Assembly: GCF_016495865.1 (NCBI RefSeq)
Contig: NZ_CP054706.1
Coordinates: 3,286,001-3,350,000 of the forward strand
DNA length: 64,000 nucleotides
Reading direction: 5' to 3'
Source: Salicibibacter cibi
Lineage (GTDB): Bacteria > Bacillota > Bacilli > Bacillales > Marinococcaceae
Below, piece after piece: positions 34,442-54,689 of this stretch (position 1 is the first letter of the stretch; every line of letters begins with the position of its first letter). The notes beneath the pieces were generated by a model. That model did no database searches and was not told the DNA's origin. It saw nothing but the letters and a program-made list of their open reading frames with translations. The position numbers and the translations under genes were made by a program.

Positions 34442-34535
34442 TAGAAAACTTGGCTTTTCGCCAAGCTTTTATGGCGAAAAGCCCTAGTTGCACTTATGTA
34501 GGAAAGAAAGTTGATTTATACTTTCTTTCCTACCA
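34442..34535 (+). repeat. Hairpin element, full copy E, inside the metN leader
   Basis: Stem 1 is GGCTTTTCGCCA...TGGCGAAAAGCC; stem 2 is GTAGGAAAGAAAGT...ACTTTCTTTCCTAC. Stem 2 carries paired changes relative to copies F and H, keeping all pairs. It lies between the riboswitch terminator and the metN binding site. Confidence 0.85.
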
Positions 34536-34575
34536 AAAAAATAACCCTTTAGCCCTACGATGAGCAGAAAGGTTA
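34536..34575 (-). terminator. Riboswitch terminator (SAM-I expression platform)
   Basis: On the minus strand AACCTTT...AAAGGGTT closes a stem and is followed by A and T7. It is the OFF-state terminator of the SAM riboswitch. Confidence 0.8.
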
Positions 34576-34587
34576 CGCATCATTTCT

Positions 34588-34697
34588 GTCTCATCTTCCA
34601 AGGATGAACACCTTGCAGGAATTGGCACCTTTGTAATTCGCCATTACCGGTTGCCGGGCTTCATCGGGCCAGTCCCTCCACCGCTCCAGATAAGAAT
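34588..34697 (-). promoter_or_regulatory. SAM-I (S-box) riboswitch
   Basis: The minus strand reads TTCTTATCTGGAGCGGTGGA, then GGGACTGGCCCGATGAAGCC and CGGCAACC, then GGTGCCAATTCCTGC and GATGAGAC-like closing sequence. These are the conserved P1-P4 and kink-turn elements of the S-box. SAM binding is expected to favour the terminator and shut off metNPQ. Confidence 0.96.
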
Positions 34698-34717
34698 AGT
34701 ATTCTATGAATGCGTTT

Positions 34718-34746
34718 ATTTTAGCACCGGCCCCCTATGCTGTCAA
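34718..34746 (-). promoter_or_regulatory. Sigma-A-type promoter of metNPQ
   Basis: TTGACA (34741-34746) and TAAAAT (34718-34723) on the minus strand are 17 bases apart. Transcription would start about 14 bases before the riboswitch. Confidence 0.85.
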
Positions 34747-34902
34747 CGTATACGATTCATCGGGCATGCGTTGTTGTCATGCGGCATGGACCGGTTTCGG
34801 GCATCTTATGGTCTCGTTTCCGAATCCCAATATAGCAATAGTCAAGTTTGGCGCGTTACAATAGATATATGTAGCTATGTCACCGAGAGGAGTTTTCCTA
34901 TC

Positions 34903-36555
34903 ATGTATGAGCAGTTGGCAACGCTGTGTGAAGCAGAGCAGGCGGAATGGTTAACGATGAAGCTCGTTGCTCTCGATAGCACGAACGGGAGCGCGGGCGA
35001 AATTGAAATATCCGATTATCTACATAAGCTTATTCGTTCCTTCCCATATTTCCAAAAACATCCCGAGCACATATGGTTACAGACGATCCCAAATGACAAG
35101 CGCAAGAATGTGTTTGCTTTTTTACCGGGAAAGGCGAACGCAAAAGAAACGATCCTTTTTCATGCCCATTATGACACCGTGGGCATTGAAGATTATGGGA
35201 CACTGAGTGCGCATGCTTTCGATCCGGAGGCGTTGCTCGCCTATTTTTCCGATGATGTGACAAATACAGAAATCAGGGAAGATGCTGCAACCGGCGATTG
35301 GTTGTTCGCTCGCGGATCAGCGGATATGAAAAGCGGCATTGCGGTTCACCTCGTGAACCTGCTCCGATTCGCGGAACACGAACGGCCGACAGGCAATATC
35401 CTCCTGCTCATCACCGCTGACGAAGAAAGCGAACACGCAGGGATGAAGGCTGCAATCACAGAGTTGCAATATCTCCGAAACGAATGGAGGATCCACTACA
35501 AGGCGGCCATCAACAATGATTATATTTCTCCGCAATATGAAGGGGACAGCACGCGCTATATGTACACGGGCACATGCGGGAAAGTTTTGCCGTGTTTTTA
35601 TGTAGCCGGAAAAGAAAGCCATGTCGGCGACACGATGACGACGGTGAATCCAACATCGATAGCCTCCAAATTAAACTTGGAACTTCATAACAATGTTGAG
35701 ATCGCCGAACAAATGAAAGAGGAATTCATTTTGCCGCCGACATGCTTATATCAACGGGATAACAAGCAAACGTATGACGTGCAAACAGCAACGAGCGCTT
35801 ACATCTATTTTAATTTTTGTTTATATGAACGTACTGTACACGAAGCAACGACACGGTTGTTGGAAATCGCGCGAAGATCGGCAGAAGAAGTGTCAAAAGA
35901 ATACGAAAGCCGCTATCAAGCTTTTACAAAACAAATGGGCAGGGATCCGAAAAACCTCGATTGGTCCGTCGAAGTCACTACGTTTGAAGCTTTCAAAAAG
36001 GAATTGGAAGCATTGAACGCTCCCGTTGCCGATACGATCGAACAAACCGCACACACCTTTCGGCACCTCGACATCCGCGAACGTTTTTTCAAAATCGTGG
36101 AAGCCATGCAAATGTTGGATCCTGCCCGCAAACCGAGAGTCGTTCTTTTTTACGCTCCTCCGTTCCTACCCCATAATCACTTGCAGGAAGGGGCGAAAGA
36201 CCATGACCACTTATTAAAAACACTTGACGAAGCGCTTGCCGCATCTGAAAAGATAAGCGGTGAAACCTATCGCATCCGCCGTTTTTTTCCTTTTATATCC
36301 GATAGCAGTTATCTTGCAATCCAAGAAAGCGATGACGAACTGGCAGCGCTTATTGATAACTTTCCCAGATGGGGCAAAGATTACGAGGTGCCCCTTTCCG
36401 AGATACGCAAACTGAGCATCCCCGCCCTCAACATGGGGGTATATGGCAAAGACGCTCATCAATGGAGCGAACGGTTGTATAAACCATTTAGTTTCCGGGT
36501 TTTACCGGGGTTGATTCGAGACGTGACCGCACGGGCATTTGGCAACTCATCCTGA
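34903..36555 (+). CDS. rocB: M20 family peptidase, RocB-like
   Basis: A 550-residue M20 metallopeptidase-fold protein of the RocB group, which belongs to the arginine/ornithine utilisation regulon in B. subtilis but has no defined reaction. Metal motifs are FHAHYDTVG near residue 90, ARGSADMKSGIA near 145 and ITADEESEHAG near 175. The length fits RocB (about 566) rather than ordinary M20 peptidases (about 400). The ATG at 34903 has GAGAGGAG upstream; further upstream the frame lies in the metN leader. It is monocistronic here and no rocA/rocC genes are nearby. Confidence 0.87.
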   Translation: MYEQLATLCEAEQAEWLTMKLVALDSTNGSAGEIEISDYLHKLIRSFPYFQKHPEHIWLQTIPNDKRKNVFAFLPGKANAKETILFHAHYDTVGIEDYGTLSAHAFDPEALLAYFSDDVTNTEIREDAATGDWLFARGSADMKSGIAVHLVNLLRFAEHERPTGNILLLITADEESEHAGMKAAITELQYLRNEWRIHYKAAINNDYISPQYEGDSTRYMYTGTCGKVLPCFYVAGKESHVGDTMTTVNPTSIASKLNLELHNNVEIAEQMKEEFILPPTCLYQRDNKQTYDVQTATSAYIYFNFCLYERTVHEATTRLLEIARRSAEEVSKEYESRYQAFTKQMGRDPKNLDWSVEVTTFEAFKKELEALNAPVADTIEQTAHTFRHLDIRERFFKIVEAMQMLDPARKPRVVLFYAPPFLPHNHLQEGAKDHDHLLKTLDEALAASEKISGETYRIRRFFPFISDSSYLAIQESDDELAALIDNFPRWGKDYEVPLSEIRKLSIPALNMGVYGKDAHQWSERLYKPFSFRVLPGLIRDVTARAFGNSS

Positions 36556-36599
36556 ACCATGGAGGCGATCATGTTGGCGGGTTTAAATTGTAATTATTG

Positions 36600-36783
36600 T
36601 TAGAAAACTTGGCTTTTCGCCAAGCTTTTATCGCGAAAAGCCTTCGCCCAACTTATGTAGGGAATGCTGAACAACTTGCAGCTATCAGCTGAAGCCGGGA
36701 TGCCGCTTCCATGGCTTCGCTTTCCGCTATTCAGCAATCCCTATGTAGGTAAGAAAGTTGATTTATACTTTCTTACCTACCAA
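36600..36783 (+). repeat. Hairpin element, copy F, split by a MITE
   Basis: The left part (36600-36659) and right part (36742-36783) together make one full element. The MITE at 36660-36741 interrupts it at TATGTA, which is duplicated on both sides. Stem 2 of this copy is GTAGGTAAGAAAGT...ACTTTCTTACCTAC. Confidence 0.85.
36660..36741. mobile_element. MITE, 82-bp deleted copy inserted in the hairpin element
   Basis: Ends GGGAATGCTGAACAAC and CTATTCAGCAATCCC. Exact 6-bp duplication TATGTA at 36654-36659 and 36742-36747. It retains the left end and part of the CTTCCATGGCTTCGCTTTCC core only. Confidence 0.85.
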
Positions 36784-37060
36784 GAAAAAAATACCGTACC
36801 GAACACGCGCCAAGAAACGATTAAAAGACACCGAGCTCATTTGTCCCAACTGCTATCGGGAGAATGAGCTTGATAAAGCACTGATCAACTTGAGTCGATT
36901 GATCTTTTATGTGACGGTAAGTTTTTTTCTTGCTACCCTTGTTTACGGTTTCATGAGTAATTGGATAGCGGATCCACTGTTTAGCTTTTATCTCGGATTA
37001 ATCCCGGCAATCATTTATCCGTTGTTATCGATGTTTTTAATTCGAGTGGAACCAGATTGA
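36758..37060 (+). CDS. Possible small zinc-ribbon membrane protein, N-terminus lost in repeat
   Basis: An open frame of 100 codons. The last 75 residues look genuine: LICPNCYRENELDKALINL (a single CxxC) is followed by two membrane segments (FYVTVSFFLATLVYGF and FSFYLGLIPAIIYPLLSMFL). The first residues come from the hairpin element, and the only start there is a TTG (36758) with no binding site. The gene may have been truncated by the repeat, or it may start at an unrecognised codon. The function is unknown. Confidence 0.4.
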   Translation: MIYTFLPTKKKIPYRTRAKKRLKDTELICPNCYRENELDKALINLSRLIFYVTVSFFLATLVYGFMSNWIADPLFSFYLGLIPAIIYPLLSMFLIRVEPD

Positions 37061-37125
37061 AAATATGTAACACTTACAACTGGAATACGTCACATTTAAA
37101 AAGAGTGCATTAAAGGAGGGGGAGC

Positions 37126-38037
37126 GTGGTTCGTCGATTTTTTTATTCTTTCGTTTTTCTTATAGGATTCGCGGTCGCGGGATGCAGCGATGATGAAACG
37201 GCCCAGCACGAGCGAGCGGACACGCACAGTAATGATGAAGCCGAGTTTGCAGTCGAAGAAGCCGACGACACGGGAGACTCCGAAGGTGAGGTTTCAACGA
37301 CTGACGAAGAAACGAACGACAGCACGGAAGACATAACAGACGTTGATGTGTCGGATCAAATGATTATTTACAACGGGGATATTTCTATTGAAGTGGATCA
37401 ATTCGATGATGCCCAACGTCAAATTGAAGAGCACGCGGAACAAATGGACGGCTATGTCGTTGAATCCAACGTTCATGACCGTGATGATGAAGCAGGAAAC
37501 CGGAGCGGAACGTTTTCGGTGCGGATCCCACAGGAAAACTTCACCTCGTTTTTGGATGAATTGGAAGCCATAGGGACGGAAGTGTTGGAACGTTCCACTT
37601 ACGGAGATGATGTCACAGAGGAATACGTCGATTTAGAATCACGCCTCCAATCCAAGGAGACGGTTGAAGAACGCCTGCTTGCGTTTATGGAAGAAGCAGA
37701 AAACACAGAAGATCTTCTCGATATTTCCGATGATCTAGCTTCCACCCAAGAAGAAATCGAACAAATCGAGGGACGTATGAATTATTTGGAAAATCACGTC
37801 GCATATTCTACGGTGAACATTGATATACAAGAGGTTGCCGCTTCCACCTTACAAGATCGGGAATCATTGAATATATGGGGGCAAGCAACAAGTCTTTTCA
37901 CGGATACAGTGAATGTGCTGGTTTCCCTCTTCTCCGGATTGGTCATATTCATGATCGGTTTGTCCCCTGTGATTATACCCTTGCTGGTGATAGGAGCAGC
38001 CGTCTTGTTTTTCCTGAAAAGAAGACAGAAGCGTTAA
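37126..38037 (+). CDS. DUF4349 domain-containing lipoprotein
   Basis: A 303-residue lipoprotein. The signal peptide leads to the lipobox VAGC near residue 20. An acidic, probably disordered linker (about 23-78) precedes the DUF4349 domain (about 80-270). This has a MIIYNGDISIEVDQF strand, a coiled-coil middle (RLQSKETVEERLLAFMEEAE) and YLENHVAYSTVNIDIQE. A C-terminal membrane segment (about 270-295) ends in RRQKR. The start is GTG at 37126, after GGAGGGGGA. Such proteins are widespread and uncharacterised; the two anchors suggest a bridge at the membrane surface. Confidence 0.85.
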   Translation: MVRRFFYSFVFLIGFAVAGCSDDETAQHERADTHSNDEAEFAVEEADDTGDSEGEVSTTDEETNDSTEDITDVDVSDQMIIYNGDISIEVDQFDDAQRQIEEHAEQMDGYVVESNVHDRDDEAGNRSGTFSVRIPQENFTSFLDELEAIGTEVLERSTYGDDVTEEYVDLESRLQSKETVEERLLAFMEEAENTEDLLDISDDLASTQEEIEQIEGRMNYLENHVAYSTVNIDIQEVAASTLQDRESLNIWGQATSLFTDTVNVLVSLFSGLVIFMIGLSPVIIPLLVIGAAVLFFLKRRQKR

Positions 38038-38082
38038 GTTATCATTCAACCTCGCGCCCATCCGAGAAACCATCGGAGACGT

Positions 38083-38934
38083 TCAAACCTCTAAATGAAT
38101 ACGATTCCCTGAAGGGTCCGTCGTGACAAAAACCCCATTTTCTTTTGTCACAGCAGCTCCGATTTTTTCAACATTTGCTACGACGCGTTCCCTCGTTGCT
38201 TCATCCGGCAAATTTATCGTGAAAAATTTCAAGCCGGGGCTTTTATCCGGTGGCGCGGGCGCACCCACCCCAGTCCAAGTATTCAAGCCTATATGATGAT
38301 GATAGTTACCACTGGAGATGAAAAGGGCTTGATCCCCGAGTTTGCTCACAATATCAAAACCGAGCCCTTCGGTATAAAAAGGCTTCGTCTTTTGCAAATC
38401 TGCCACATGTAAATGGATATGGCCCATAACAGTGCCGGCAGGCAATCCTTTCCATAACTCTCCTTCTTTCTTTTCGGAAAGAATACCGGGAACATTGAGC
38501 GGGTCCACGGCCATCGCTACTTGCCCGTTCTCCCAATCCCATTCCGACGAATCACGGTCTGCATAAATTTCTATCCCATTTCCATCCGGATCCGATAAAT
38601 AAAGAGATTCACTGACCCAATGGTCCGAGGAACCGACACGGACGCCTTTTTCAATAAAGTAGTTAATGATATTCGCCAAATCGGCACGACGAGGTAACAG
38701 TAAAGCGAAGTGATACAACCCTGTCGATCTGCTTGGTTTTGGTAGTGCTTTTTTAAGTTGTTCGATTGAGACAAGACTGGTTTTTCCATCTGCCGTTAAC
38801 TGAGCGGTTGTTTTTGTTTGTTCTAGAACCTTAAAGCCAATGACCTCTTTATAAAATTGAATGGAACGTGCCAAATTTTCTACTTTAATCGTCACGTGCT
38901 CAACAAACGTTGTCGGTTTGTTATGAAAACCCAT
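38083..38934 (-). CDS. catE: VOC family extradiol dioxygenase (CatE-like)
   Basis: A 283-residue protein with two vicinal-oxygen-chelate modules (about 10-130 and 165-280). The likely Fe/Mn ligands are an N-terminal-module-like HxH region (MGHIHLHVAD near 170), a central histidine pair (YHHHIGLNTW) and a late glutamate (GNRIHLEV at the end). It resembles B. subtilis CatE (YfiE), catechol 2,3-dioxygenase, and related proteins of unknown substrate. The ATG at 38934 has AAGGAGAAGAG upstream. It is monocistronic and convergent with the DUF4349 gene. No other catechol gene is nearby. Confidence 0.8.
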   Translation of the reverse strand: MGFHNKPTTFVEHVTIKVENLARSIQFYKEVIGFKVLEQTKTTAQLTADGKTSLVSIEQLKKALPKPSRSTGLYHFALLLPRRADLANIINYFIEKGVRVGSSDHWVSESLYLSDPDGNGIEIYADRDSSEWDWENGQVAMAVDPLNVPGILSEKKEGELWKGLPAGTVMGHIHLHVADLQKTKPFYTEGLGFDIVSKLGDQALFISSGNYHHHIGLNTWTGVGAPAPPDKSPGLKFFTINLPDEATRERVVANVEKIGAAVTKENGVFVTTDPSGNRIHLEV

Positions 38935-38983
38935 ATTCTCTTCTCCTTGTAAAAAAAGCCTATATTGTATACTCAGCATTGTA

Positions 38984-39018
38984 CAAAAAGCCACTCCCCA
39001 TTGGGAGTAGCTCCTTTT
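38984..39018 (-). terminator. Terminator of gcvH
   Basis: AGCCACTCCC pairs with GGGAGTAGCT (one mismatch) around CATT; on the minus strand T5 follows. Confidence 0.8.
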
Positions 39019-39402
39019 TTATTCTTCACCAACCATTTCATCATACGCCTCAGCACTCATCAATTCGTCCAATTCAGCTTTATCGGCAGGCTCGACGACG
39101 ACCATCCAAGCTTTGTCGTATGGAGATTCATTGACGAATTCCGGAGAATCTTCAAGTTCTTCGTTGATTTCCACCACTTTGCCGCTTATCGGCGCGTAAA
39201 GTTCGGAGACGGTTTTTACCGATTCCACACTGCCAAATGGCTCATTCACTTCAATTTGATCGCCCACTTCCGGAAGTTCAACGAATACGATGTCGCCAAG
39301 TTCGTCTTGCGCGAAGGATGTAATCCCAATTCGAACCTTGTCCCCTTCTTCTTTTACCCATTCATGTTCTTCCGAATACTTTAATTCTTTTGGTGACGCC
39401 AT
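39019..39402 (-). CDS. gcvH: Glycine cleavage system H protein
   Basis: GcvH, 127 residues, is the lipoyl carrier of the glycine cleavage system and, in Bacilli, also the hub for lipoate relay to other enzymes. The lipoylated lysine is Lys63 in [11 protein letters not shown]. The fold begins [17 protein letters not shown]. It needs LipA, encoded at 12.3 kb. No gcvT or gcvP is adjacent, as in B. subtilis yusH. AAGGAGG precedes the ATG. Confidence 0.96.
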
Positions 39403-39426
39403 AATATCTCCTCCTTATCAAATAGT

Positions 39427-39780
39427 TTACTTCCAGTTATCGAGAAACGTTGCTTCCTTAAACCCAAGTGTGACGGTTTTTCCATCGGTCACAATCGGCC
39501 GTTTAATAAGCATGCCATCCGACGATAACCAATCGATGATTGTTTCTTCATTTGCTTCCGGAAGCTTGTCCTTTAAACCCATTTCACGATATTTTTTTCC
39601 GCTCGTATTAAAGAACTTCTTCCATTCCAGGCCACTCTTTTCCTTTAGGTCCTTGAGTTCCTCACGTGTCGGCGGTTCCTTAACAATATGTCTCTCTTCA
39701 TAAGGTACGTCATGGGCATCCAACCATTTCTTTGCTTTTTGGCAAGTGCCGCATGGCGGATAACTAAAAACGGTAAGCAA
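39427..39780 (-). CDS. yusI: ArsC/Spx family protein YusI
   Basis: A 117-residue thioredoxin-fold protein of the ArsC/Spx superfamily with a CGTC motif (residues 10-13) and the conserved LIKRPIVTDGKTVTLGF block. Spx regulators keep a CxxC switch and bind RNA polymerase, while ArsC enzymes reduce arsenate. YusI belongs to a third branch without known function. It is located 24 bases upstream of gcvH, matching B. subtilis, so the two may be co-transcribed. Confidence 0.9.
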   Translation of the reverse strand: MLTVFSYPPCGTCQKAKKWLDAHDVPYEERHIVKEPPTREELKDLKEKSGLEWKKFFNTSGKKYREMGLKDKLPEANEETIIDWLSSDGMLIKRPIVTDGKTVTLGFKEATFLDNWK

Positions 39781-39933
39781 ATCTTAACCCCCTTTATGTA
39801 CCGTAAGGTTCACTCATCATTATACGATATTTTTGAAAACGTTTATACTATAGAGATTGAAAAATTTCCCCGTTTCAGCGAGTAAATATATTATAATAGG
39901 AACACCTCTCAACAAAAAGGAGCTTTTCCTATC

Positions 39934-40860
39934 ATGGCAACCCGAGCGCTAACCATCATCCAAGGAAGTTGGCAATTGTTGCGACTTATGGCTGTCGCCT
40001 CTTCAAGTTTTTCGACTATTCTATCTACCATGCTTCCACTCATCTTATTTTACTCGATCTCAACGGATACCGTCCTCTCTCTTTTTATGATGCTAACCGT
40101 CGGTGCGCTCTTCTTCCACGGTGTGCTCACCCATATGTTAAATGATGTATCCGATTATAAATCAGGCACGGATGCACACAGTCCGGCAATTCTCTCGGGC
40201 GGAAGCCGCGTCACGCAAGATGGGTATTTTTCTGTTGAGGACCTGGAAAAGCTCGGCGACCGCCTGATTTATGCCATTATTTTTGCCTGTATCGCGCTTG
40301 TTTTCCTTGGATTCTATGAAATTTCCATGTTGTTATTAATCGGTGTATGGGCTGCCGCCTCCTATTCACGGGTTCCCCTCCAACTCAGTTACCGCCCGTT
40401 TGCAGGTGAAGTATTTAGTTTGTTTCCATCTATGCTGGCGCTTGGATTAGCCGGCGCGTGGCTAGCATTGGATGCCATTCCCTTGTGGGCATGGCAAAAC
40501 GCTACGATCAACGCCCTCTTTTGCGTGTCATGGGTCATGGTTCACCATATCCCTGACCGGATTGCCGACCAGCACGCTGCGCCAAAGAAACGAACATCTG
40601 TCGTATGGGCAATGGAAACATTCGGCCAATCGTTTAGCCGTTTGCCGGCTCTGTTTTATCTTTTTTTAACCGGAGTATGCATTTTTTGGATGGGAACGGA
40701 ACGGCTATGGGCAGCCTTAGGGGTGCTCGTATTTGTCGCCGCTTCCGCCATTCTTGTTACTAAAATGAACATCGATGATAATCAGCAAGTTTCTACATGT
40801 GAAAAAATAATGCTGCTGCTCGCGATCGTTAACGCGATCTGGCTGGGTGTTTTTATGTAA
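39934..40860 (+). CDS. UbiA-family prenyltransferase-like membrane protein
   Basis: A 308-residue polytopic protein with seven to nine hydrophobic segments. The first Asp-rich motif NDVSDYKSGTD (near residue 70) fits the UbiA/MenA pattern for binding Mg-prenyl diphosphate. A second possible motif is HHIPDRIADQH near 210. Family members attach prenyl chains to aromatic rings in quinone, haem or lipid synthesis. This one is divergent and lies alone, so the acceptor is unknown. AAAAAGGAG precedes the ATG at 39934. Confidence 0.78.
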   Translation: MATRALTIIQGSWQLLRLMAVASSSFSTILSTMLPLILFYSISTDTVLSLFMMLTVGALFFHGVLTHMLNDVSDYKSGTDAHSPAILSGGSRVTQDGYFSVEDLEKLGDRLIYAIIFACIALVFLGFYEISMLLLIGVWAAASYSRVPLQLSYRPFAGEVFSLFPSMLALGLAGAWLALDAIPLWAWQNATINALFCVSWVMVHHIPDRIADQHAAPKKRTSVVWAMETFGQSFSRLPALFYLFLTGVCIFWMGTERLWAALGVLVFVAASAILVTKMNIDDNQQVSTCEKIMLLLAIVNAIWLGVFM

Positions 40861-41010
40861 CGACGATGTCCCAGGAACACTTTTGATTAATTTTGGGTGC
40901 CTAAGAGGCAACAAATAAAAGGTATAAGTGCTAACCAAGTGAGTTTCCGGCGTTACCTGTATGGGGAAGGGGAAACTGCATCCCCCAAATTGAAAGTTTT
41001 TTGCTTTTCA
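40861..41010. other. Intergenic, nothing recognised
   Basis: No gene or clear terminator could be supported after the UbiA-like gene. Confidence 0.4.
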
Positions 41011-41130
41011 GGGACGCCAGAAATGCAAGGGTTTTGTTGCTTATAGGATGGATTTCCTTGCATCCAGTTTTGACAACACCAACGGAAAATGCTTATGTGC
41101 CAGTCTTTTTCCGTTATTCAGCAGTCCCTA
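41011..41130. mobile_element. MITE remnant, left end missing
   Basis: The right 120 bases of the MITE (GACGCCAGAAATGCAAGGG onward to TTATTCAGCAGTCCC) are present. The left inverted repeat has been lost, so it is an immobile relic. Confidence 0.8.
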
Positions 41131-41157
41131 TTTAAGATTGGAGCGAATGAAGAAGTT

Positions 41158-41457
41158 ATGTCTTGGATACTGGGTTATCTGTTACTTGCGTTTATTCCAA
41201 GCTATATTTTTTATAAATTTTTTAAAACAGACTGGTTCGTTTATATCCCCATGTTAGTTACATCAGGAATTATCTTCTTGCTAATTCTTTTGGGGGGTTA
41301 TGAATGGGGGACGGCAGATTTCATTCACTGTGAGGATCATGGGTTTAACTGTGCGTCTGTGGCTTATTTATTACTTATATTCATTGGCCCTTACTTTATA
41401 GCAACGATTGCAGTTGGATCTGCATTGTATAACCTTAAGCTTAAACGAGGGACATAA
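41158..41457 (+). CDS. Small hypothetical membrane protein
   Basis: A 99-residue protein with three hydrophobic segments (LGYLLLAFIPSYIFY, YIPMLVTSGIIFLLILLG, ASVAYLLLIFIGPYFIATIA). A charged loop contains two cysteines (HCEDHGFNCASV). The ATG at 41158 has only a weak AAGAAG upstream, and the MITE remnant ends 27 bases before it, so the original control region may have been replaced. The family is not recognised. Confidence 0.6.
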   Translation: MSWILGYLLLAFIPSYIFYKFFKTDWFVYIPMLVTSGIIFLLILLGGYEWGTADFIHCEDHGFNCASVAYLLLIFIGPYFIATIAVGSALYNLKLKRGT

Positions 41458-41504
41458 CAATAAACTTTGACTTCGCCATAAACGAGGCTTAAACACCGAC
41501 AACC

Positions 41505-41545
41505 TCAAAAACCCGCGCCATCCGAACGGCGCGGGTTGATTTTCT
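41505..41545 (-). terminator. Terminator of the fad operon
   Basis: AACCCGCGCC pairs with GGCGCGGGTT around ATCCGAAC, followed on the minus strand by T4. Confidence 0.88.
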
Positions 41546-43329: not shown

Positions 43330-43349
43330 TTGTAATCGCTCCCTTACAA

Positions 43350-46973: not shown

Positions 46974-46990
46974 CATTAGCCTCCCTTTTT

Positions 46991-47178: not shown

Positions 47179-47433
47179 ATGGATATGCAACAACAACCCG
47201 GGCAATCAGGGCAGCAAAACATGATGATGGAACCGCCTAAAGTGCTTTCCACAAAAGATCAGCTTTATCTGTCCGATATGTTGAACTGGAACCTTACCGC
47301 CACAAAGAAGGCAAACTTTTATGCAGGGCAGTGCAACGACAACGATATTAAAAGTGCTTGCCAACGTGTTGCGCAAATGCATGAAAACCATTATCAAACG
47401 CTTCTTTCTCTCTTACAACAACACACGCAATAA
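47179..47433 (+). CDS. Small spore coat-like protein
   Basis: An 84-residue protein with a Gln/Met-rich N-terminus (MDMQQQPGQSGQQNMMM) and a helical C-terminus (LSTKDQLYLSDMLNWNLTAT; NHYQTLLSLLQQ). The pattern resembles the short CotF-like coat proteins that occur near yusN in Bacilli. AAAGGAGG precedes the ATG. It is followed at once by a second, related gene, with which it probably forms an operon. Confidence 0.7.
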   Translation: MDMQQQPGQSGQQNMMMEPPKVLSTKDQLYLSDMLNWNLTATKKANFYAGQCNDNDIKSACQRVAQMHENHYQTLLSLLQQHTQ

Positions 47434-47438
47434 AGGAG

Positions 47439-47780
47439 ATGAGAACCATTTCAGGGCAAAAAATACAAAACCCCCAAACAAACGTCCCAAAAACACAACA
47501 AATGAACGATAAAGATTTTATTACCGATCTTTTGTCCACAGAAAAATACATGACTTCTTCGTATGGCACAGCCATGAATGAAGCTAGCCATATGCAACTA
47601 TACCAAGAAATCAATTCCATCTGTAACGACACCGATCAATGCGCGCGTGATTTATTCAACACCATGTTTCAAAAGGGATGGTATGCCCTTGAAGGAGCTC
47701 CACAACAAACGATTCAACAAACGTTCCAGGAATATTCGGGCATGACAAGTCAACTTCCTTCCGGAAGCATGCCGCACTAA
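47439..47780 (+). CDS. Spore coat protein, CotF-like
   Basis: A protein of about 113 residues of the coat F-like helical family. Key segments are QMNDKDFITDLLSTEKYMTSS, MNEASHMQLYQEI and FNTMFQKGWYALEGAP. The ATG at 47439 directly abuts AAAGGAG with no spacing. An ATT at 47448, nine bases after that site, would also give a plausible start, so the exact N-terminus is uncertain. It pairs with the preceding coat-like gene, and a terminator follows. Confidence 0.78.
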   Translation: MRTISGQKIQNPQTNVPKTQQMNDKDFITDLLSTEKYMTSSYGTAMNEASHMQLYQEINSICNDTDQCARDLFNTMFQKGWYALEGAPQQTIQQTFQEYSGMTSQLPSGSMPH

Positions 47781-47785
47781 TGATG

Positions 47786-47814
47786 AAAGGCCCCGGATAA
47801 AGGGGCCTTTTTTT
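47786..47814. terminator. Terminator after the coat-like pair
   Basis: AAAGGCCCC pairs with GGGGCCTTT around GGATAAA, followed by T run. Confidence 0.88.
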
Positions 47815-48019
47815 ACATTTGCAATTTTTCTTCTTCATACAATTCCTTTTTCGTTCTCTTGCTCAACAAACCATACAAGCTTGTAAAAACAATCCCACAA
47901 AAACCTAGAACCTGGGCGATCGTACTAATGGCTTCCACAGAAGTAATGAGACCGAAAAAGAAAAAGAATATTGAGGCAGTCATCGCGCTCAATATCAACA
48001 ACAAACGTTGCATTTTCAT
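47813..48019 (-). CDS. Small hypothetical membrane protein
   Basis: A 68-residue protein with two membrane segments (LLLILSAMTASIFFFFFGLI and TIAQVLGFCGIVFTSLYGLL) and a charged C-terminal tail (KRTKKELYEEEKL). The ATG at 48019 lies after GGAAGGTG. It converges on the coat-like pair. The family is not recognised; similar YrhC/YtpI-like small proteins are common in Bacillaceae. Confidence 0.65.
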   Translation of the reverse strand: MKMQRLLLILSAMTASIFFFFFGLITSVEAISTIAQVLGFCGIVFTSLYGLLSKRTKKELYEEEKLQM

Positions 48020-48399
48020 ATTTGTCACCTTCCAATATTTCTATCATTATCCTTATGTGCATCACACGCTTCCTATTCATTTTTAATAATTTTCAATATT
48101 GAATAAATATAGAGGGAGAGATCAAAAGGATGTTAGTTTTATTATTAAACCATTGAATAGGTTATTTGTCAAGCTTTTTTTGCTTCAATTTGTGCGCGAA
48201 TGGAGGTGACGGTGGTCATGGCGACCAAAATGACCTACCTCCATTGATTTCGGGCTCCATAGGTAGCTCAGTCGTATGTCTTCCCGGCTTGCAATTTTTT
48301 CTTCTAGGAATTATAATTTTAGAACAAATGTTCGTTTCATGTTGAAAAAAGCTCCTCAATTTTCCTTTCTGCACTATAGACAAAAGGGAGGGTGAGTCA
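48020..48399. other. Intergenic, one large dyad
   Basis: AT-rich sequence of 380 bases. The only clear feature is an inverted repeat with arms AATGGAGGT (48199-48207) and ACCTCCATT (48237-48245) and an inner GGTC/GACC pair. It could be an operator or RNA hairpin in front of the sigma-factor cassette. No tRNA was found. Confidence 0.5.
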
Positions 48400-49002
48400 A
48401 TGAATCACGACACGATAGAGCAACTCAAAAAAGAATGCCCTCGGATGGCCATATTTTTCGACAACAATCCTCAACTGGCCAAACAGCAAATCTTTCAAGG
48501 TTTTCTTGAATACGATGAATATCAGCACATTTTCATACAAGCGGTTTGTTTTCCCAATCACGGTGCATTCCGGGCACTGAACGAAGCATTCAAGGACCAT
48601 TATGCGAATGTGCAGTTTACGTACTATTTAACAAAAACACTGTATTGGACTTCCGTCCAATATGACCAACGCCGACGGGAACAAAGGGATAACCAGCGTC
48701 TCATGATGGACAACCTCCACGAAACCGGAACCATTTGGTATCCATGTGAAAATATGCCCGATATCATCACCGAAACGAGCGACCTTGGCACATGGAGTGA
48801 AGACGTTGAACTGACGAACGCATTGCGCCAATTAACAGCTAAACAACAAATCGTTATTATTGAACGATATGGCTACGAGCGAACAAACAATGAAATCGCG
48901 CGCTTATTGAACGTAAGCCCGCAAGCCATTTCCCGAACGCATTCGCACGCGCTTAAACGTCTTCGCACTATTTTGCAAAGGAAGTGGGAAAATGATGCTT
49001 GA
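48400..49002 (+). CDS. sigO: Sigma-O-like RNA polymerase sigma factor
   Basis: A 200-residue sigma-70-family protein. The C-terminus is a clear region 4 (LTNALRQLTAKQQIVIIERY, then a helix-turn-helix EIARLLNVSPQAISRTHSHA). The N-terminal half lacks a canonical region 2. In B. subtilis SigO (YvrI) likewise supplies region 4, while a separate protein RsoA supplies region 2. The following genes yvrJ and rsoA complete that cassette here. GGAGGGTGAG precedes the ATG. B. subtilis SigO-RsoA drives oxalate decarboxylase; no oxdC is present here. Confidence 0.78.
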   Translation: MNHDTIEQLKKECPRMAIFFDNNPQLAKQQIFQGFLEYDEYQHIFIQAVCFPNHGAFRALNEAFKDHYANVQFTYYLTKTLYWTSVQYDQRRREQRDNQRLMMDNLHETGTIWYPCENMPDIITETSDLGTWSEDVELTNALRQLTAKQQIVIIERYGYERTNNEIARLLNVSPQAISRTHSHALKRLRTILQRKWENDA

Positions 49003-49129
49003 ATTTTTAGGACAATTCGGTTTGCCATTTTTGTTCGCCGTTTATCTCTTTTATCGATTTGAAAGGCGTATTGAGCGATTGGAAAATATCCTCCACAACG
49101 AGGCAGCACAAGAAAGGAGAAATCGCTAA
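48992..49129 (+). CDS. yvrJ: YvrJ family small membrane protein
   Basis: A 45-residue protein (MMLEFLGQFGLPFLFAVYLF, then a charged helix YRFERRIERLENIL). It has one membrane segment and a basic/acidic cytoplasmic tail, as in the YvrJ family. It overlaps the sigO stop by eleven bases and ends one base before rsoA, so the three genes are translationally coupled. B. subtilis also has yvrJ with sigO-rsoA. The function is unknown; anchoring or sensing for the sigma pair is possible. Confidence 0.8.
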   Translation: MMLEFLGQFGLPFLFAVYLFYRFERRIERLENILHNEAAQERRNR

Positions 49130-49366
49130 ATGATCCGTCACTATGTAAAAGAAGCACAACGCGGCGACCGGGAAAAACTCGCAACGTTGATCCATCAGTT
49201 TGAACCGAAAATAAGAAATTGCCTATGGCAAACGACTCCCGGGGAAAGAGACGACCTGCGCCAAGAATTGATGCTCAAGCTAATCGAAATCACGCTCCAT
49301 TACGATCCGGAAAAAGCTCCCACCTTCACCGAATTCAACACATCCCTCCACGTTAAAAAAACTTGA
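49130..49366 (+). CDS. rsoA: RsoA-like co-sigma factor (region 2 subunit)
   Basis: A 78-residue protein resembling RsoA, the small partner that provides the sigma region 2 function to SigO. The segment REKLATLIHQFEPKIRNCLW followed by ERDDLRQELMLKLIEI matches region 2 helices of ECF-type factors. The start directly follows the yvrJ stop. The last residues (about SLHVKKT) are encoded by the start of a hairpin element, so the C-terminus may have been altered by that repeat. Confidence 0.75.
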   Translation: MIRHYVKEAQRGDREKLATLIHQFEPKIRNCLWQTTPGERDDLRQELMLKLIEITLHYDPEKAPTFTEFNTSLHVKKT

Positions 49367-49446
49367 CTTCTCGCCAAAAATGGCGAAAGTGTTAGTTGCA
49401 CTTATGCAGGTGAGAAAGTTGATTTATACTTTCTTACCTGCAAAAA
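49353..49446 (+). repeat. Hairpin element, full copy G
   Basis: A diverged copy with stem 1 shortened (TCGCCAAAAATGGCGA). Stem 2 is GCAGGTGAGAAAGT...ACTTTCTTACCTGC, where one G-T pair replaces a T-A pair. It overlaps the last codons of rsoA. Confidence 0.75.
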
Positions 49447-49470
49447 AAGCCGTGAACGACGGCTTTTTTC
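49443..49470 (-). terminator. Terminator of the thioredoxin-reductase-like gene
   Basis: AAAAAAGCCGT pairs with ACGGCTTTTTT around GAACG, at the 3' end of the minus-strand gene. Confidence 0.88.
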
Positions 49471-50371
49471 AAGATTCTTCTTGCATTAGCGACCGTTGAA
49501 CCCAAACGGCTGCCTGCGCCCCTTCCCCCATGGCAATGGCCACCTGTTCGGAATGCACGGCGAGATCACCGGCAGCCCATACCCCCGGAATGTTCGTCAT
49601 TTTTGTACGGGTATCATTAAGAACGTGATGATTTTCCAAGCGTTCGACTCCAATTTGCTTCCCTAAATCCGAATGAACAACATTGCCGGGAAAAGCAATA
49701 AACGCTTTTTCTGCCTGCAACGCTGTGCCATCATCAAGCGTCACTCCGGCAAATTGATCCCCTTCCAGATGAACGCGCTCAATCCTTCCTTCATGAAGGC
49801 CAATGCCGGCTTCCGACAATTGTCTTTTTTCCTCTTCGGCAACAGGCGACTGACTTCCATGGCTCACATACGTCAACCGATCCGTCCAACGCACAAGATC
49901 GAACGCCATCCGCACACCTGCACGCCCGGACCCAAGCACAAGGGTACGTTTTTCTTTAATTTCATAACCATCACAATCCGGACAGATGTATACACTCATG
50001 CCGAAACAAGGCTCAAGTTCCGGAAATGGGTTAGCGTCAGTCACCCCCGTAGCCAGTATCAGCTTCTTTCCGTGATACGTACCCCCGTCTTCCGTTTCTG
50101 CTCGAAATCCCGATCGCTCCTTTCCCAATCGGATAACTTTTTCATCCATAAAATCAACATCATAGTTGCTCGCATGTTTCCGTCCTGCTTTGCGAAGTTC
50201 CCTTCCGCTGATCCCGTCCGGCCAACCGAGAAGATTTCGATATTGCCGGCAAAGCATAGAACGGCCGCTCCCCTCATCAATCACCGTCACCTTGCGCTCA
50301 TAACGCCCTAATTGAATCGCTGCTTGCAACCCCGCGATCCCCCCGCCGATAATCATGACATCTGCTTGCAC
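49469..50371 (-). CDS. Thioredoxin-reductase-like NAD(P)/FAD oxidoreductase
   Basis: A 300-residue flavoprotein of the thioredoxin reductase-like family. The FAD motif is IIGGGIAGLQAA near the N-terminus, the redox pair is CPDC near residue 135, and a second nucleotide motif is VLGSGRAGVRMA. The C-terminal GVWAAGDLAVHSEQ is present. The start is GTG at 50371, seven bases after GGAGGTG. The protein is closer to stand-alone family members than to TrxB itself, so its partner (thioredoxin, bacilliredoxin or other) is unknown. Confidence 0.82.
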   Translation of the reverse strand: MQADVMIIGGGIAGLQAAIQLGRYERKVTVIDEGSGRSMLCRQYRNLLGWPDGISGRELRKAGRKHASNYDVDFMDEKVIRLGKERSGFRAETEDGGTYHGKKLILATGVTDANPFPELEPCFGMSVYICPDCDGYEIKEKRTLVLGSGRAGVRMAFDLVRWTDRLTYVSHGSQSPVAEEEKRQLSEAGIGLHEGRIERVHLEGDQFAGVTLDDGTALQAEKAFIAFPGNVVHSDLGKQIGVERLENHHVLNDTRTKMTNIPGVWAAGDLAVHSEQVAIAMGEGAQAAVWVQRSLMQEES

Positions 50372-50521
50372 ACCAAAACACCTCCATGCCAATAGCATTC
50401 GTCAAACCAACAAAAAAATGCCCAGGTTCGCAGCTGGAACCCAAGCAATTTTATCCCGATGGCAAGCGCTATGCATCACTTCTCAACACTGTTACACTGA
50501 TTAAAAAAAGGAGACCTCAAA

Positions 50522-50830
50522 TTGGATCAAACAGACATCGAAAAACAAGTCGTTGACCAATACCGGCAAGATGAAAACATGATGATCCTCGTCTTCGCCC
50601 AATGGTGCGTCAACCAAGACCTGGACCCGCACAACTTATACAAACGCGCCCACCCGGACCAACCGATAAACGGAGAATTGGAAAAAACACTGGAATTAAC
50701 CGTTCCAAAAAAAGAAGCCGGTGAAATCGAAGACGAGACCATCCTCGGCGTCCTCTCCATGTTTGGAAACAGCGACCTGGCAATGGCCGTGACCGAAGAA
50801 ATCGAGAAAAGAGACAGGCAAAAACGTTGA
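50522..50830 (+). CDS. Conserved hypothetical acidic protein
   Basis: A 102-residue soluble helical protein starting MDQTDIEKQVVDQYRQDENM with the block ILVFAQWCVNQDLDP and an acidic C-terminal half. The start is TTG at 50522 after AAAAGGAGA. The family appears widespread in Bacillaceae but has no assigned function. It converges on thiF with a 24-base gap. No motif suggests catalysis. Confidence 0.65.
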   Translation: MDQTDIEKQVVDQYRQDENMMILVFAQWCVNQDLDPHNLYKRAHPDQPINGELEKTLELTVPKKEAGEIEDETILGVLSMFGNSDLAMAVTEEIEKRDRQKR

Positions 50831-50854
50831 GCCAAACAACGCATCAGGCATATC

Positions 50855-51883
50855 TTAATCGATCAATGCCAAAACGTGTTCGTACACCCTCTCTGCCCGA
50901 TCTCCTTCGTCAATGCCGTGCAAGAGCGCCCGACCGTCTTTGAACAAGACGACCCGACAACCTTCATAATTAAGGGTCGCGACATCTTCGTGCAAACGTA
51001 CGGAAGAGAGCGTTGAATGCTTTACGTTTTGCAGCTTTTCCACCTGCACTTCTTTTCGCTCCCGCGGTCGGACATGTACGGTGTCACCACCGCACAACAC
51101 TCGAATTTGCTTCCCTTTTTTCTCACCAAAAAGGGCAGGATAAGTCGGATTGGGCCCACAGGTGGGACAATGTTCGTCTTTTAAGCGGCCGGCATCGATC
51201 GCCGCAGTTTCATTTTTCCAAAGATCAAACGACCGCAACCGTTCGGAAACCGCTTCTTTGTTTCCGCTAACGATTTTTATCGCTTCCGCACTTTGCATCG
51301 CCGTCACCATTTGGACAGCAGGTGCGATCACCCCATCGTTATCACACGTTTCATCTAAAGATAGATACGGACTCAAACACCGGAGGCAAGGACCGTCATC
51401 CAACATAAAGGAACGCGACAGCCCATAGCTGCCGACAACGCCACCGTAAATCCAAGGAACACCGTAACGATAAGCCGCATCATTTACTAGCATCCGAACT
51501 TCAAAATTGTCGGAGCCATCCATGACCAAGTCAACCTCGGGCACAAACTTGGCCGCTTCTTCCACCTGAAAATCAAGGACGTAGGCGTCTATCTCCACAT
51601 CCGTATTCACTTTCTTAAGATAACGGGCGACAGCCTTGGCTTTGGCCACTTTGTATTGTGCATCTTCTTCTGTGAAAAGCCGCTGGCGGTGGAGATTATG
51701 AAGCTCCACGTAATCACGGTCAATGATGGTGATTTTGCCTATTCCCGCTCTCACAAGGGTGTCCGCAATGGACGTGCCGAGCGCGCCGCAACCGACGAGC
51801 AGCACATGCGCCGTGCGAATGCGGTCTTGCCCTTCTGTTCCTAGCGGCTCAAAACGTGTTTGCCGATCATAGCGATCAACCAT
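50855..51883 (-). CDS. thiF: ThiF-type adenylyltransferase
   Basis: A 342-residue E1-like enzyme that adenylates the C-terminus of ThiS for thiazole synthesis. The nucleotide motif is [11 protein letters not shown] near residue 35, and the zinc cysteines are CLRC (near 165) and CPTC (near 245). The extra C-terminal domain (about 270-342) is a rhodanese-like relic as in MoeB/ThiF fusions. The ATG at 51883 overlaps the thiG stop by eight bases. It is the last gene of the operon; thiD is not adjacent. Confidence 0.92.
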
Positions 51884-52640
51884 GAAACACACCTTCCTGA
51901 GGACTGCTTGCCTTCGCAAAACGCTTCACCGGAATACGTCCGGCTTCGTAACTTAAGCGCCCGGCTTGAATGGCTAATTTCATCGCCTCCGCCATTTTTA
52001 CAGGATCATCTGCTTGCGAAACCGCACGATTCAATAGCACGGCATCCGCACCCATTTCCATCGCCAATGAAGCATGGGAAGGCGCACCGATTCCGGCATC
52101 GACAATAACCGGAACGTTCGCTTGTTCCACAATGTAGGATAAATGAAGCGGGTTCAATATCCCGCGCCCTGTACCGATGGGCGCAGCCCCCGGCATCACC
52201 GCATGCGCACCCAACTCTTCCAACTTGCGGGCAAGCACGGGGTCATCAGCAATATACGGCAGAGTGATAAACCCTTCTTCCAAAAGCATTTCTGTCGCCC
52301 GATACGTTTCAACGGCATCAGGCAAAAGGGTTTGATCATCCCCAATCACTTCAACCTTCACCATGTCACTCAATCCAGACGTGCGAGCTAGTTTTGCAAT
52401 GCGAACGGCTTCTTCCGCCGTTTTTGCCCCAGCCGTGTTCGGTAACATGGAAAATGTATCCGGTTGAAATTCCGAAACGAGATCATCATCACTGTCATCC
52501 AAATTCATTTTGGCAACGGCAAACGTCAAAATTTCCGTCTCCGACGCTTGCACGGCTTTACGTTGCACATCAACATCCGGAAACGTTCCGGTTCCCAATA
52601 ACAATCTTGAACGGAACGTTCGATCCCCTATTCTCAACAT
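51876..52640 (-). CDS. thiG: Thiazole synthase ThiG
   Basis: ThiG, 254 residues, is a TIM-barrel that makes the thiazole phosphate from deoxyxylulose phosphate, dehydroglycine and ThiS-thiocarboxylate. The Schiff-base lysine lies in MVKVEVIGD near residue 95. Phosphate-binding [10 protein letters not shown] and [11 protein letters not shown] motifs are present. It starts two bases after thiS and overlaps thiF at its end. Confidence 0.95.
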
Positions 52641-52642
52641 TT

Positions 52643-52846
52643 TTACCCTCCTCCCACAAAACGGACAACGAATATCTGATCGCCCTCGGCGAGCGCCGTT
52701 TTTTTATATTCGTCGGGCTTGAGCGCGACCTCGTTGTGTTCGATCATTGCCTTTTTATCTGCCAAATTAGCATGCACACGGAAATCTTCAATCGTTTTCA
52801 CATCTGCAGGGACGTCCATCGTTTCTTCGTTTACTTTGATATGCAT
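52643..52846 (-). CDS. thiS: Sulfur carrier protein ThiS
   Basis: ThiS, 67 residues, is a ubiquitin-like sulfur carrier. It ends in FVGGG, whose terminal glycine is activated by ThiF and converted to a thiocarboxylate. It starts 13 bases after thiO and abuts thiG. Confidence 0.92.
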
Positions 52847-52859
52847 GATTTATTCCCCC

Positions 52860-53972
52860 TTAATGATTTCGATTAGGCCGAAACGCCTGTAAAGCTTCCA
52901 TCTTTCCACTCGTGATCGTGGCAACCATTTCCTTCCCGGAAGCCGGCGCCAATAAAATACCATTGCGTCCGTGACCGCCACAGAGCCAACATCCGCGGAT
53001 CGAAGGATGAGGCCCCATCAAGGGAAGGCCATCCGTCGTTTGCGGACGAATACCCGCCCACATTTTCGAGATTTTCGCGTGCGCAACTTCAGGGAGCAAC
53101 TGTTGCGCACGCTGGAGTACTTCGCCGATGCCTTGCACCGTTGTTCTCCGATCCCGCGATAACTCGGACGTCGCCCCGATTAGTGTTTCGCCATTTGGCT
53201 TCGGCACGAAATAGAAATGTTCATGATAGAGCGTCTTCGTGACGAGCGGATGCTTCCCTTGCACGCGAATCGCCTCTCCTTTTATCCCTTCAATCGGTAG
53301 CACACTTCGATCCGCGGAAAGCTCAAACAAATCAGAACCGGTTGCCAGAACGACATGTTCGCTATAAAATTCCTCGCCGCTCGCCGAAAGGACCCCTTCG
53401 CAATGATCGCCATTTTGAAGCAGAGCGCGCACGCCGGTATACGTTTTCAATTCAGCGCCTTGAAGCACCGCTGCTTGTCGGAAGGCAGAAGCTGTTTGCA
53501 CAGGTTCCACGTGCGCTTCTTCAGGAAAATAAAGGGCACCCTCTGCCCCATCGGCGAGGAAGGGAAGGTGTTCGTACAATTGTGCAGCCGTTAAACATTG
53601 CACCGATTCCCCGGCTGCCGTTTGCCATCGTTCAATTTCATTTAATTTTTTCCATTCTTCCGATGAAAAAGCCGGTTTAATCGCGCCGGAAACCGTTCGG
53701 CCGATGGATGTCCCCGTTTGCGCCATCAACTCCTCAGCCAATTGCGCGTACAATTCCCGGCTCTTTTTCGCGAGAGGATACAGAGGCGTTCGGGATTGCA
53801 GTTCCACTTGGACCCCCAACATACCGGCGGCGGCCGATGTCGTGCCGTTTCCTGCATCCCCACGGTCAAGAATAAGTGTTTTTAACCCTGCCCGTGTTCC
53901 GTAATACGCGATCGCGAGCCCTATGATCCCTGCGCCGACAATAATGAGATCATACGATTCATGTCGTTTCAT
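52860..53972 (-). CDS. thiO: Glycine oxidase ThiO
   Basis: A 370-residue FAD-dependent glycine oxidase of the DAO family that makes dehydroglycine for ThiG. The FAD motif is IIVGAGIIGLAIAYY (residues 10-24). The C-terminal GLPLMGPHPSIRGCWLCGGHGRNGI contains the expected FAD contacts. It overlaps the tenI stop by a few bases. Confidence 0.93.
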   Translation of the reverse strand: MKRHESYDLIIVGAGIIGLAIAYYGTRAGLKTLILDRGDAGNGTTSAAAGMLGVQVELQSRTPLYPLAKKSRELYAQLAEELMAQTGTSIGRTVSGAIKPAFSSEEWKKLNEIERWQTAAGESVQCLTAAQLYEHLPFLADGAEGALYFPEEAHVEPVQTASAFRQAAVLQGAELKTYTGVRALLQNGDHCEGVLSASGEEFYSEHVVLATGSDLFELSADRSVLPIEGIKGEAIRVQGKHPLVTKTLYHEHFYFVPKPNGETLIGATSELSRDRRTTVQGIGEVLQRAQQLLPEVAHAKISKMWAGIRPQTTDGLPLMGPHPSIRGCWLCGGHGRNGILLAPASGKEMVATITSGKMEALQAFRPNRNH

Positions 53973-54573
53973 AATTCATCTGCCCAAAACGATTAAATTG
54001 GATGGCCTCTTCTTCCGGTTTTTCCGCTTCCCAAAAACCTGAAATTAGCGCAATGCCCGAAGCACCGGTGCGGGATATTTCGCCTAAACGGTCCCGGGTG
54101 ATGCCTCCGATCGCAAGCACGGGGATGCGAACCGATTGCACAACCGATTGCAGTGCCGCAGTCCCACGGGGCGGGACGTCGGGTTTACTCGCGCTCGGAT
54201 ATATATGTCCATAATAAAGGTAGTCCACCCCTTCTTCAGCCCGGGCTTTTGCTTCCTCGAGGTTGTGCACCGACGCCCCCACTTGCAGATTCGGCGCCTT
54301 GTTTTTCACGTCTTTTGCCGTCAGCGAGGAATTGCTCGGCAAGTGAACACCCCCCAAGTCCCACGCGGCCGCTGCTTCCGCATGTTCATTAAGAACAATT
54401 CGCTCGCGTCGTAGTCCAATTTTACAAAGCTGGTCAATTTGTTGTTTTAACCGTTGCAGCGAAGCTTCCTTATCGCGAATATGAACGATGTCAATATTTT
54501 TCAATGCGTGTCGCAACTGCCTTACTTGAATGTGAAACGGGCAGTTGTTCGTCGTGATTAAATGCCAGGTCAC
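53959..54573 (-). CDS. tenI: TenI family thiazole tautomerase
   Basis: A 204-residue ThiE/TenI-family barrel. In this operon position (tenI-thiO-thiS-thiG-thiF) it is expected to be TenI, which aromatises the ThiG product, rather than ThiE. The phosphate-binding IGGITRDRLGEI and HLPSNSSL segments are visible. The start is GTG at 54573 (VTWHLITTNNCPFH) with GGGAGG six bases upstream. An earlier in-frame start lies in the hairpin element and has no binding site. The tenA gene that precedes tenI in B. subtilis is missing. Confidence 0.86.
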   Translation of the reverse strand: MTWHLITTNNCPFHIQVRQLRHALKNIDIVHIRDKEASLQRLKQQIDQLCKIGLRRERIVLNEHAEAAAAWDLGGVHLPSNSSLTAKDVKNKAPNLQVGASVHNLEEAKARAEEGVDYLYYGHIYPSASKPDVPPRGTAALQSVVQSVRIPVLAIGGITRDRLGEISRTGASGIALISGFWEAEKPEEEAIQFNRFGQMNYETT

Positions 54574-54594
54574 GGTTAGCCTCCCTACCAATCT

Positions 54595-54689
54595 TTTAGA
54601 AAACGTGGCTTTTCGCCAAGCTTTTATAGCGAAAAGCCTTAGTTGCACTTATGCAGGTAAGAAAGTTGATTTGTACTTTCTTACCTGCC
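54595..54689 (+). repeat. Hairpin element, full copy H, inside the tenI leader
   Basis: Stem 1 is GGCTTTTCGCCA...TAGCGAAAAGCC; stem 2 is GCAGGTAAGAAAGT...ACTTTCTTACCTGC. It lies between the TPP riboswitch and the tenI start, in the same orientation as copy E in the metN leader. Confidence 0.85.

Follow-up and report, generated by a model that had tools for sequence, protein, structure and literature searches.

Group IIC introns (bacterial class C) already offer an example of terminator-directed insertion: extracts of PMC4424553 describe them as inserting at intrinsic terminators. PATE elements, which derive from IS200/IS605, have no inverted repeats, make no target duplication, carry hairpins at their ends and insert 3' of a short fixed oligonucleotide (extracts of PMC7290912). 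SPRITE of Streptococcus pneumoniae is a repeat that is short and dispersed, has a structure like that of a Rho-independent terminator and is enriched near gene 3' ends; the extracts of its description give it one 18-bp duplex with AAAA/TTTT ends, report it as nearly absent beyond pneumococcus and S. mitis, and record no comparable empty site (PMC3049150). Here we analyse a repeat of ~93 nt with two hairpins from a 64,000-nt stretch of the Salicibibacter cibi genome (the window; contig NZ_CP054706.1, positions 3,286,001 to 3,350,000). Word and sequence-string searches of titles and abstracts found no publication on it. We consider the repeat to be a non-autonomous mobile element, with a probability of roughly 0.75.

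Copies, empty sites and the insertion target

The dispersed two-hairpin repeat of the original prediction is real, and its copies lie in the window where they had been placed. A 26-base pattern of the 3' end, with up to 3 mismatches, matched the S. cibi genome 112 times (57 forward, 55 reverse), against 0 for the reversed control. The copy set comprised the DNA around 100 of these pattern places together with BLAST places. The genome contains at least 112 distinct copies with a 3' end; a 5' end is present in 65 and both ends in 64. A location mostly inside coding genes had been named as grounds for abandoning the prediction, and this is not what was found, 108 of the 112 copies being outside genes according to a heuristic gene caller. 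The window copy at 34442 is one of the four exceptions, and there the caller had stretched a MetN-like frame upstream. At locus L077 a reading frame holds the insertion close to its 3' end and receives an in-frame TAA from the element. With both flanking genes oriented against the presumed direction of replication, element orientation is split 5:5 (origin and terminus assumed), which favours neither replication nor gene direction as the cause of orientation.

Mobility is seen at the thiamine pyrophosphate (TPP) riboswitch locus, where the element is missing and the flanks abut in 5/5 relatives with a match. The S. cibi junction reads CTTG/GCAGG...TTTTCTAA/AAG and that of genome G001 reads CTTG/AAG. 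For 15 further loci the joined flanks were searched in three species of the genus, and ten loci were aligned. Five have a clean empty site in at least one congener (L002, L078, L013, L095, L066), L098 is empty but for a one-base difference at the junction, and L044 and L077 are empty with substitutions nearby; remnants are kept at L035 and no alignment was obtained for L052. The clean empty sites show no target duplication and no lost bases. Flanks spaced 93-97 bases apart suggest that some copies, for example L022, L052 and L013, are common to S. cibi and G003. In genome G006 eight copies of 93 nt are identical although their flanks are unrelated, which indicates recent movement there; all eight end in TTTTCTTT followed by A, and are preceded by T-rich sequence ending in TTG or TTA. 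Virgibacillus litoralis carries head-to-tail tandem copies with the junction TTTTCTAA/GCAG.

A classical miniature inverted-repeat transposable element, mobilised by a cut-and-paste insertion sequence, would also be small, multi-copy and intergenic. However, this explanation is contradicted by the empty sites, which have no target duplication where clean. Terminal inverted repeats are also lacking, the ends GYAGG... and ...TTTTCTAA not being inverted copies of each other in an alignment of 83 copies. This alignment, also used for covariation, holds 64 copies from S. cibi and 19 from other genera, out of 91 references; the eight omitted were mostly near-duplicates from Oceanobacillus. We regard a classical element of this kind as extremely improbable.

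The 5' junctions point to a T-rich target. In the 64 copies with both ends, T occupies position -3 in 59 and G or A position -1 in 57. The last four bases before the element are TTTG (22), TTTA (14) or CTTG (6) in 42 of these, and in the other 22 are not fixed. A T-run of at least 5 precedes 37/65 copies, compared with 3.5% of random positions. Terminators were scored as hairpins that reach at least -9 kcal/mol in stability and close on a T-tract. Upstream of the element, 26/64 S. cibi copies pass, as against 84/1500 intergenic control positions and 2/64 on the far side. In six genomes of other genera 24/34 copies pass, 6/40 stretches having been dropped beforehand as truncated, tandem, mis-centred or sharing flanks. 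Six of the eight identical G006 copies pass, while L304 and L306 fail. Under a stricter stem rule the figures are 16/64 for S. cibi, versus 4.1% of controls and 12% with a shuffled stem region, and 22/36 in other genera.

A covariance model detected relatives of the element in 48/397 sampled genomes and 36/136 genera of the order (E 1e-3, with rough calibration). A 24-base piece is present without mismatch in 51 stretches from Oceanobacillus, Virgibacillus, Lentibacillus, Geomicrobium, Natribacillus, Thalassobacillus and Pullulanibacillus. No match was found to two elements among 72,556 plasmids, to one element among 50,697 phages, or to three exact patterns in viral contigs. A larger repeat (CCCCTCGAGGTCTTAAGTCAATCC...) encloses the element in Oceanobacillus halotolerans (at loci among L102-L152), and the element seems to have spread with it.

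Working strand, fold and conservation

The working strand of the element is the minus strand of the original prediction, on which it reads G(C/T)AGG...TTTTCTAA, with the consensus order G(C/T)AGGTAAGAAAGTATAAATCAACTTTCTTACCT(G/A)C, ATAAGTGCAACTAA, GGCTTTTCGCCATAAAAGCTTGGCGAAAAGCC, AAGTTTTCTAA. RNA folding of six copies gave z of -6.4 to -10.6 and DNA folding of three copies gave -7.6 to -11.1; the whole copy at 34441..34533 folds at -44.6 kcal/mol (z -10.6). The 3' hairpin is extended to AACT/AGTT in most RNA and DNA folds. An alternative, shorter 3' hairpin, CTTGGC/GCCAAG with a T-rich tail, shares its 3' arm with the longer one and resembles an intrinsic terminator. Thus, the right end of the element resembles its target. 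It had been claimed that neither hairpin is a normal terminator because no T run follows. This holds for the plus strand but not for the minus strand, where TTTTCTAA or TTTTCTTT comes after the second hairpin; the claim is a wrong-strand reading, and the element for its part usually lies 3' of a T-run or of another terminator. In two copies (L065:1505-1599 and L072:1506-1599) the 5' hairpin has its loop in the opposite orientation to that of other copies. At L397:2206-2280 a short hairpin carries the element core GCAACTAAGTCTTTCGCC and has a long T-run; it looks like a remnant turned terminator.

The paired base changes named in the original prediction are present when the window copies are compared. 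Over the 83 copies, stem 2 (the 5' hairpin) and the short 3' hairpin, 20 pairs in all, contain 40 cells with two-sided changes, against 12.6 +/- 3.0 after shuffling; 0/500 shuffles were as high and the maximum among slid controls was 16. Stem 2 holds 39 of the 40 cells, of which 19 are at a single pair and may reflect a single subfamily split. Pairs with any two-sided change number 8 versus 5.1, a count matched by 20/500 shuffles and some slid controls. Stem 1 alone is at background (2 cells vs 1.6). Among 32 lineage representatives of the 3' part stem 1 gives a weak signal (2 vs 0.8), and 97.9% of the cells of the short 3' hairpin are paired, with a single two-sided change.

Stems were also compared across lineages, by script and by eye, in a set of 30 elements made up of 26 lineage representatives, a further element from G006 and three window copies. 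The AACT/AGTT hairpin was parsed in 22 and left unparsed in 8. Inner 3' stems differ yet pair, as in GGCTTTTCGCC/GGCGAAAAGCC, GGCTTATCGCC/GGCGATAAGCC, GGCATTCGCCA/TGGCGAATGCC, CGTC/GACG and CGCC/GGCG; in many other 3' hairpins only 4-6 inner pairs are unbroken. The 5' hairpin diverges strongly in sequence between lineages and reaches z < -2 in 16/26 representatives, some of the remainder having been wrongly cut by the extraction script. Within the genus, then, pair counts back stem 2 but not stem 1, and distant lineages appear by eye to back both. The folded form, which had been proposed to be under selection, is conserved, but selection by the host need not follow. Since the element is mobile, its fold may be kept for spreading and not for the host; since paired changes are inherited from parent copies and palindromes can self-correct, covariation need not mean host selection.

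These folds bear on a second explanation, in which the repeat is a regulatory RNA or terminator cassette that serves the host and whose copies are kept for stopping or tuning transcription. The strength of the folds in the six copies agrees with this, as do the two window copies between a riboswitch and a gene, and the element runs with the gene direction in 60/77 contexts that have both neighbours on one strand. However, positions vary among species of one genus, truncated and split copies are common (47/112 lack the 5' end), and the ten window proteins near copies have mixed names, or in two cases none. We consider a host-serving cassette unlikely.

Mechanism, candidate enzymes and associated introns

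Empty sites and flank statistics show one-oriented insertion 3' of T-rich stretches, preferentially at the T-tract of an intrinsic terminator, with neither target duplication nor base loss. We propose that the enzyme responsible, most probably a single-strand HUH enzyme as for IS200/IS605-type elements, would cut after a hairpin and T-rich tail. The same cut would occur at the right end of the element and at its targets, where the folded strand would be pasted. Tandem arrays and a mostly intergenic location would follow from such cutting after terminators, and any host gene regulation would be a side effect. The HUH-like step is drawn by analogy from the exact insertion, the absence of duplication, the end hairpins and the short 5' target, and we put it forward tentatively. 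Equally provisional is a wider proposal, that Bacillales have a mobility system not described before in which the enzyme would read the intrinsic terminator both as target and as donor end. Any segment ending in a terminator mimic could then hop between terminators; the 93-nt element would be the minimal passenger, and a group II intron would have specialised on this passenger as a dispersed landing site.

Several observations weigh against a mobile element of this kind. Of the 15 further loci, five are clean, three nearly clean, and the rest shared, unclear or unaligned. Fewer than half of the full S. cibi copies pass the terminator test, and some lie at plain T-runs resembling reversed ribosome-binding sites. 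This indicates that the T-tract matters and that the hairpin is a preference; insertion 3' of intrinsic terminators, as in group IIC introns, is thus a preference of the element and not a rule. The left hairpin of IS200/IS605 elements is subterminal, whereas that of the present element begins at the first base. A non-exhaustive search of Y1 and TnpB loci in S. cibi and some relatives found no autonomous partner with the ends of the element. Y1 transposase matches in the S. cibi genome are remnants, and relatives have intact Y1 genes, none bordered by these ends; the element-rich genome G341 has no Y1 transposase at E 1e-3. A Y2 transposase occurs in 1/10 genomes. TnpB is present in 6/7 genomes and absent from G341, and the element encloses 0 of the 30 TnpB loci examined (of 37 matches).

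A parent element was sought by comparing the halves of the element, or its covariance model, with Y1, reverse-transcriptase and TnpB loci, and no enclosing element emerged. Whole copies lie near the TnpB genes of L385 and L383 and the reverse transcriptase of L356, and weak partial matches near genes at L370, L391 and L397, but none of these genes is enclosed. Split matches around the reverse transcriptases of L350 and L368 are group II introns inserted in the element, not parents.

The search for Y1 genes also bears on whether the repeat is a repetitive extragenic palindrome (REP) moved by a REP-associated tyrosine transposase (RAYT). REPs share the high copy number, intergenic location and palindromic character, and some relatives have Y1 genes of RAYT-like length, two with a copy within 1 kb. 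These two, L251 and L263, are the only RAYT-like loci with a copy nearby, which we read as chance. RAYT-like transposase genes were noted at L246, L247, L251, L258 and L262, and several have a different repeat, GTGACAGGCACC...TTTGTCGAA, on their flanks. Together with the remnant state of Y1 in S. cibi and its absence from G341 at the above threshold, this makes a RAYT-moved palindrome most doubtful.

Two group II introns are associated with the element. The first (Rfam RF02005 in L350 and L368) lies inside the element in 10/10 fetched copies (7/7 in G002, 2/2 in G003 and 1/1 in G006; loci L368, L401-L408 and L350), so that the element is its landing site in three genomes. It is always placed after GGCTT(T/C)CG and before CC; in G003 this falls, judged by eye, in the antisense arm of an A-family hairpin. 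Its reverse transcriptase has 445 aa in G002 and G003 and is broken in G006. The seven G002 introns are 99.8-100% identical and their host elements differ, which indicates that the intron homes into pre-existing elements. No element was found around three related introns (L344, L361, L365). The second intron encodes a 439-aa protein, is probably of class C, and was found at L417 (S. cibi genome, ~259.2-261.3 kb), L366 and L409-L411. T-tracts are present at its 5' junction in 4/4 G003 copies and in the S. cibi copy. At L366 it has a T-tract on one side and an A-family copy of the element on the other, an arrangement which indicates that intron and element use the same spot.

Such introns raise a further explanation, in which the repeat resembles a short interspersed nuclear element (SINE) and owes its spread to the reverse transcriptase of a group II intron, which might copy the folded RNA into terminator sites. 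The target is that reported for group IIC introns (PMC4424553, extracts), an intron of the same genus has T-tract junctions and in L366 adjoins a copy, and another intron resides within the element. However, the element has no ribozyme match, reverse transcriptase or GUGYG-type start. The element-bearing genomes G170 and G195 have no RVT_1 match, and 7/13 element-free genomes have one. The intron inside the element, at least 99.8% identical across seven copies in differing hosts, looks like a later invader. Spread by reverse transcription is therefore possible but improbable, though less so than the host-serving cassette. Two candidate signs of it were discarded: reverse transcriptases did not separate element-bearing genomes (15/17) from those without the element (7/13), and 5' truncation was dropped, since many short copies arose by internal hairpin deletion or were split by other elements.

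The window copies and their relation to known systems

Copies and associated features of the window are listed in Table 1. Of the five full copies originally predicted, those at 14833, 34442, 49353 and 54595 are uninterrupted, but that at 36600 is split by another inserted repeat. Two of three predicted partial copies (10669-10696 and 22951-22989) are fragments of the 3' end; the third, at 24763, is a short middle remnant that was missed at E 1e-3 and adjoins a copy of a second, inverted-repeat element.

Table 1 Element copies and associated features in the window (position 1 is its first base).
Feature	Position	Strand	Context or basis
Full copy, 93 nt, GTAGG...TTTTCTAA	34441..34533	-	Between S-adenosylmethionine (SAM) riboswitch with terminator and MetN-like open reading frame (ORF)
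5' hairpin of this copy (stem 2), 14 bp	34498..34533	-	Begins at element base 1; covariation
3' hairpin of this copy (stem 1 + AACT/AGTT)	34447..34489	-	Folding, cross-lineage comparison
T-rich tail AGTTTTCTAA, element end	34441..34450	-	Read from sequence; boundary by analogy with empty sites elsewhere
Hairpin + T-run, looks like terminator of SAM-riboswitch leader	34535..34575	-	Read from sequence
SAM riboswitch, upstream of 34441..34533 copy	34588..34696	-	Rfam RF00162, 89.2 bits
Full copy between TPP riboswitch and thiamine-related ORF	54596..54688	-	Site empty in five relatives
TPP riboswitch, upstream of 54596..54688 copy	54744..54850	-	Rfam RF00059, 69.4 bits
Full copy, 92 nt, directly 3' of hairpin + T-run	14833..14924	-	Sequence
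Diverged copy directly 3' of hairpin + T-run	49350..49441	-	Aligned over 49358-49439, ends extrapolated
Split copy, pieces 36600-36664 + 36742-36783	36600..36783	-	Interrupted by second inverted-repeat element, ~36665-36741
Fragment, 3' end only	10669..10696	-	Sequence match
Fragment, 3' end only	22951..22989	-	Sequence match

An Rfam scan of the window at gathering scores returned the two riboswitches only and no family for the element, and a relaxed scan of one copy returned no intron family. Both riboswitches detected in the window carry a copy between the riboswitch region and the downstream gene. The copy at the SAM locus begins one base 3' of the leader T-run. That at the TPP locus begins ~10 bases 3' of a T-run, at CTTG, and has an altered stem base (GCCACG versus the usual GCCAAG).

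Other repeats were observed alongside these copies. The second dispersed repeat has the ends GGGATTGCTGAA/TTCAGCAATCCC, probably with a duplication of 6 bp (TACATA); it is inserted in several element copies and occurs in the window at 36665-36741, 24785-25084, 55906-56209, 196-368, 41016-41134 and 62000-62118. A third inverted-repeat element (ends GGGTCAACACTAAAATC...) is also found inside element copies, at L083 and L063. The window further contains a 52-bp tandem pair (56354-56457) and a 21-bp tandem repeat array (24214-24381).

If the repeat is a mobile element as we propose, a tiny sequence with neither protein nor ribozyme would act much like the terminator-directed introns, offering a safe-site strategy and a natural marker for terminators. 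The element would be a source of extra terminators, also within riboswitch leaders, and gives a group II intron a dispersed homing site. Questions that become testable are which enzyme reads the terminator as a target, whether the intermediate is single-stranded DNA or RNA, and how an added terminator affects riboswitch operons.

Among described systems, the element is like PATE in its lack of inverted repeats and of target duplication and in its end hairpins, and 42/64 copies follow one of the short 5' oligonucleotides. It differs in having its left hairpin begin at the very first base and a T-tract, often that of a terminator, as target, and in that no insertion sequence with matching ends was found. 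With group IIC introns it shares the target, and the junctions of an intron from the same genus are of a like type; the element, however, is 93 nt long and has neither a ribozyme match nor a reverse transcriptase. REP/REPIN sequences with RAYT are likewise high-copy intergenic palindromes, whereas the element has a fixed two-hairpin order and an exact 3' end, and no RAYT was shown to accompany it. Finally, the element is, like SPRITE, a short dispersed repeat with a terminator-like structure, but its ends, compared with the description in the extracts of PMC3049150 and not by direct alignment to SPRITE copies, are unlike AAAA/TTTT, and that description sets the two apart.

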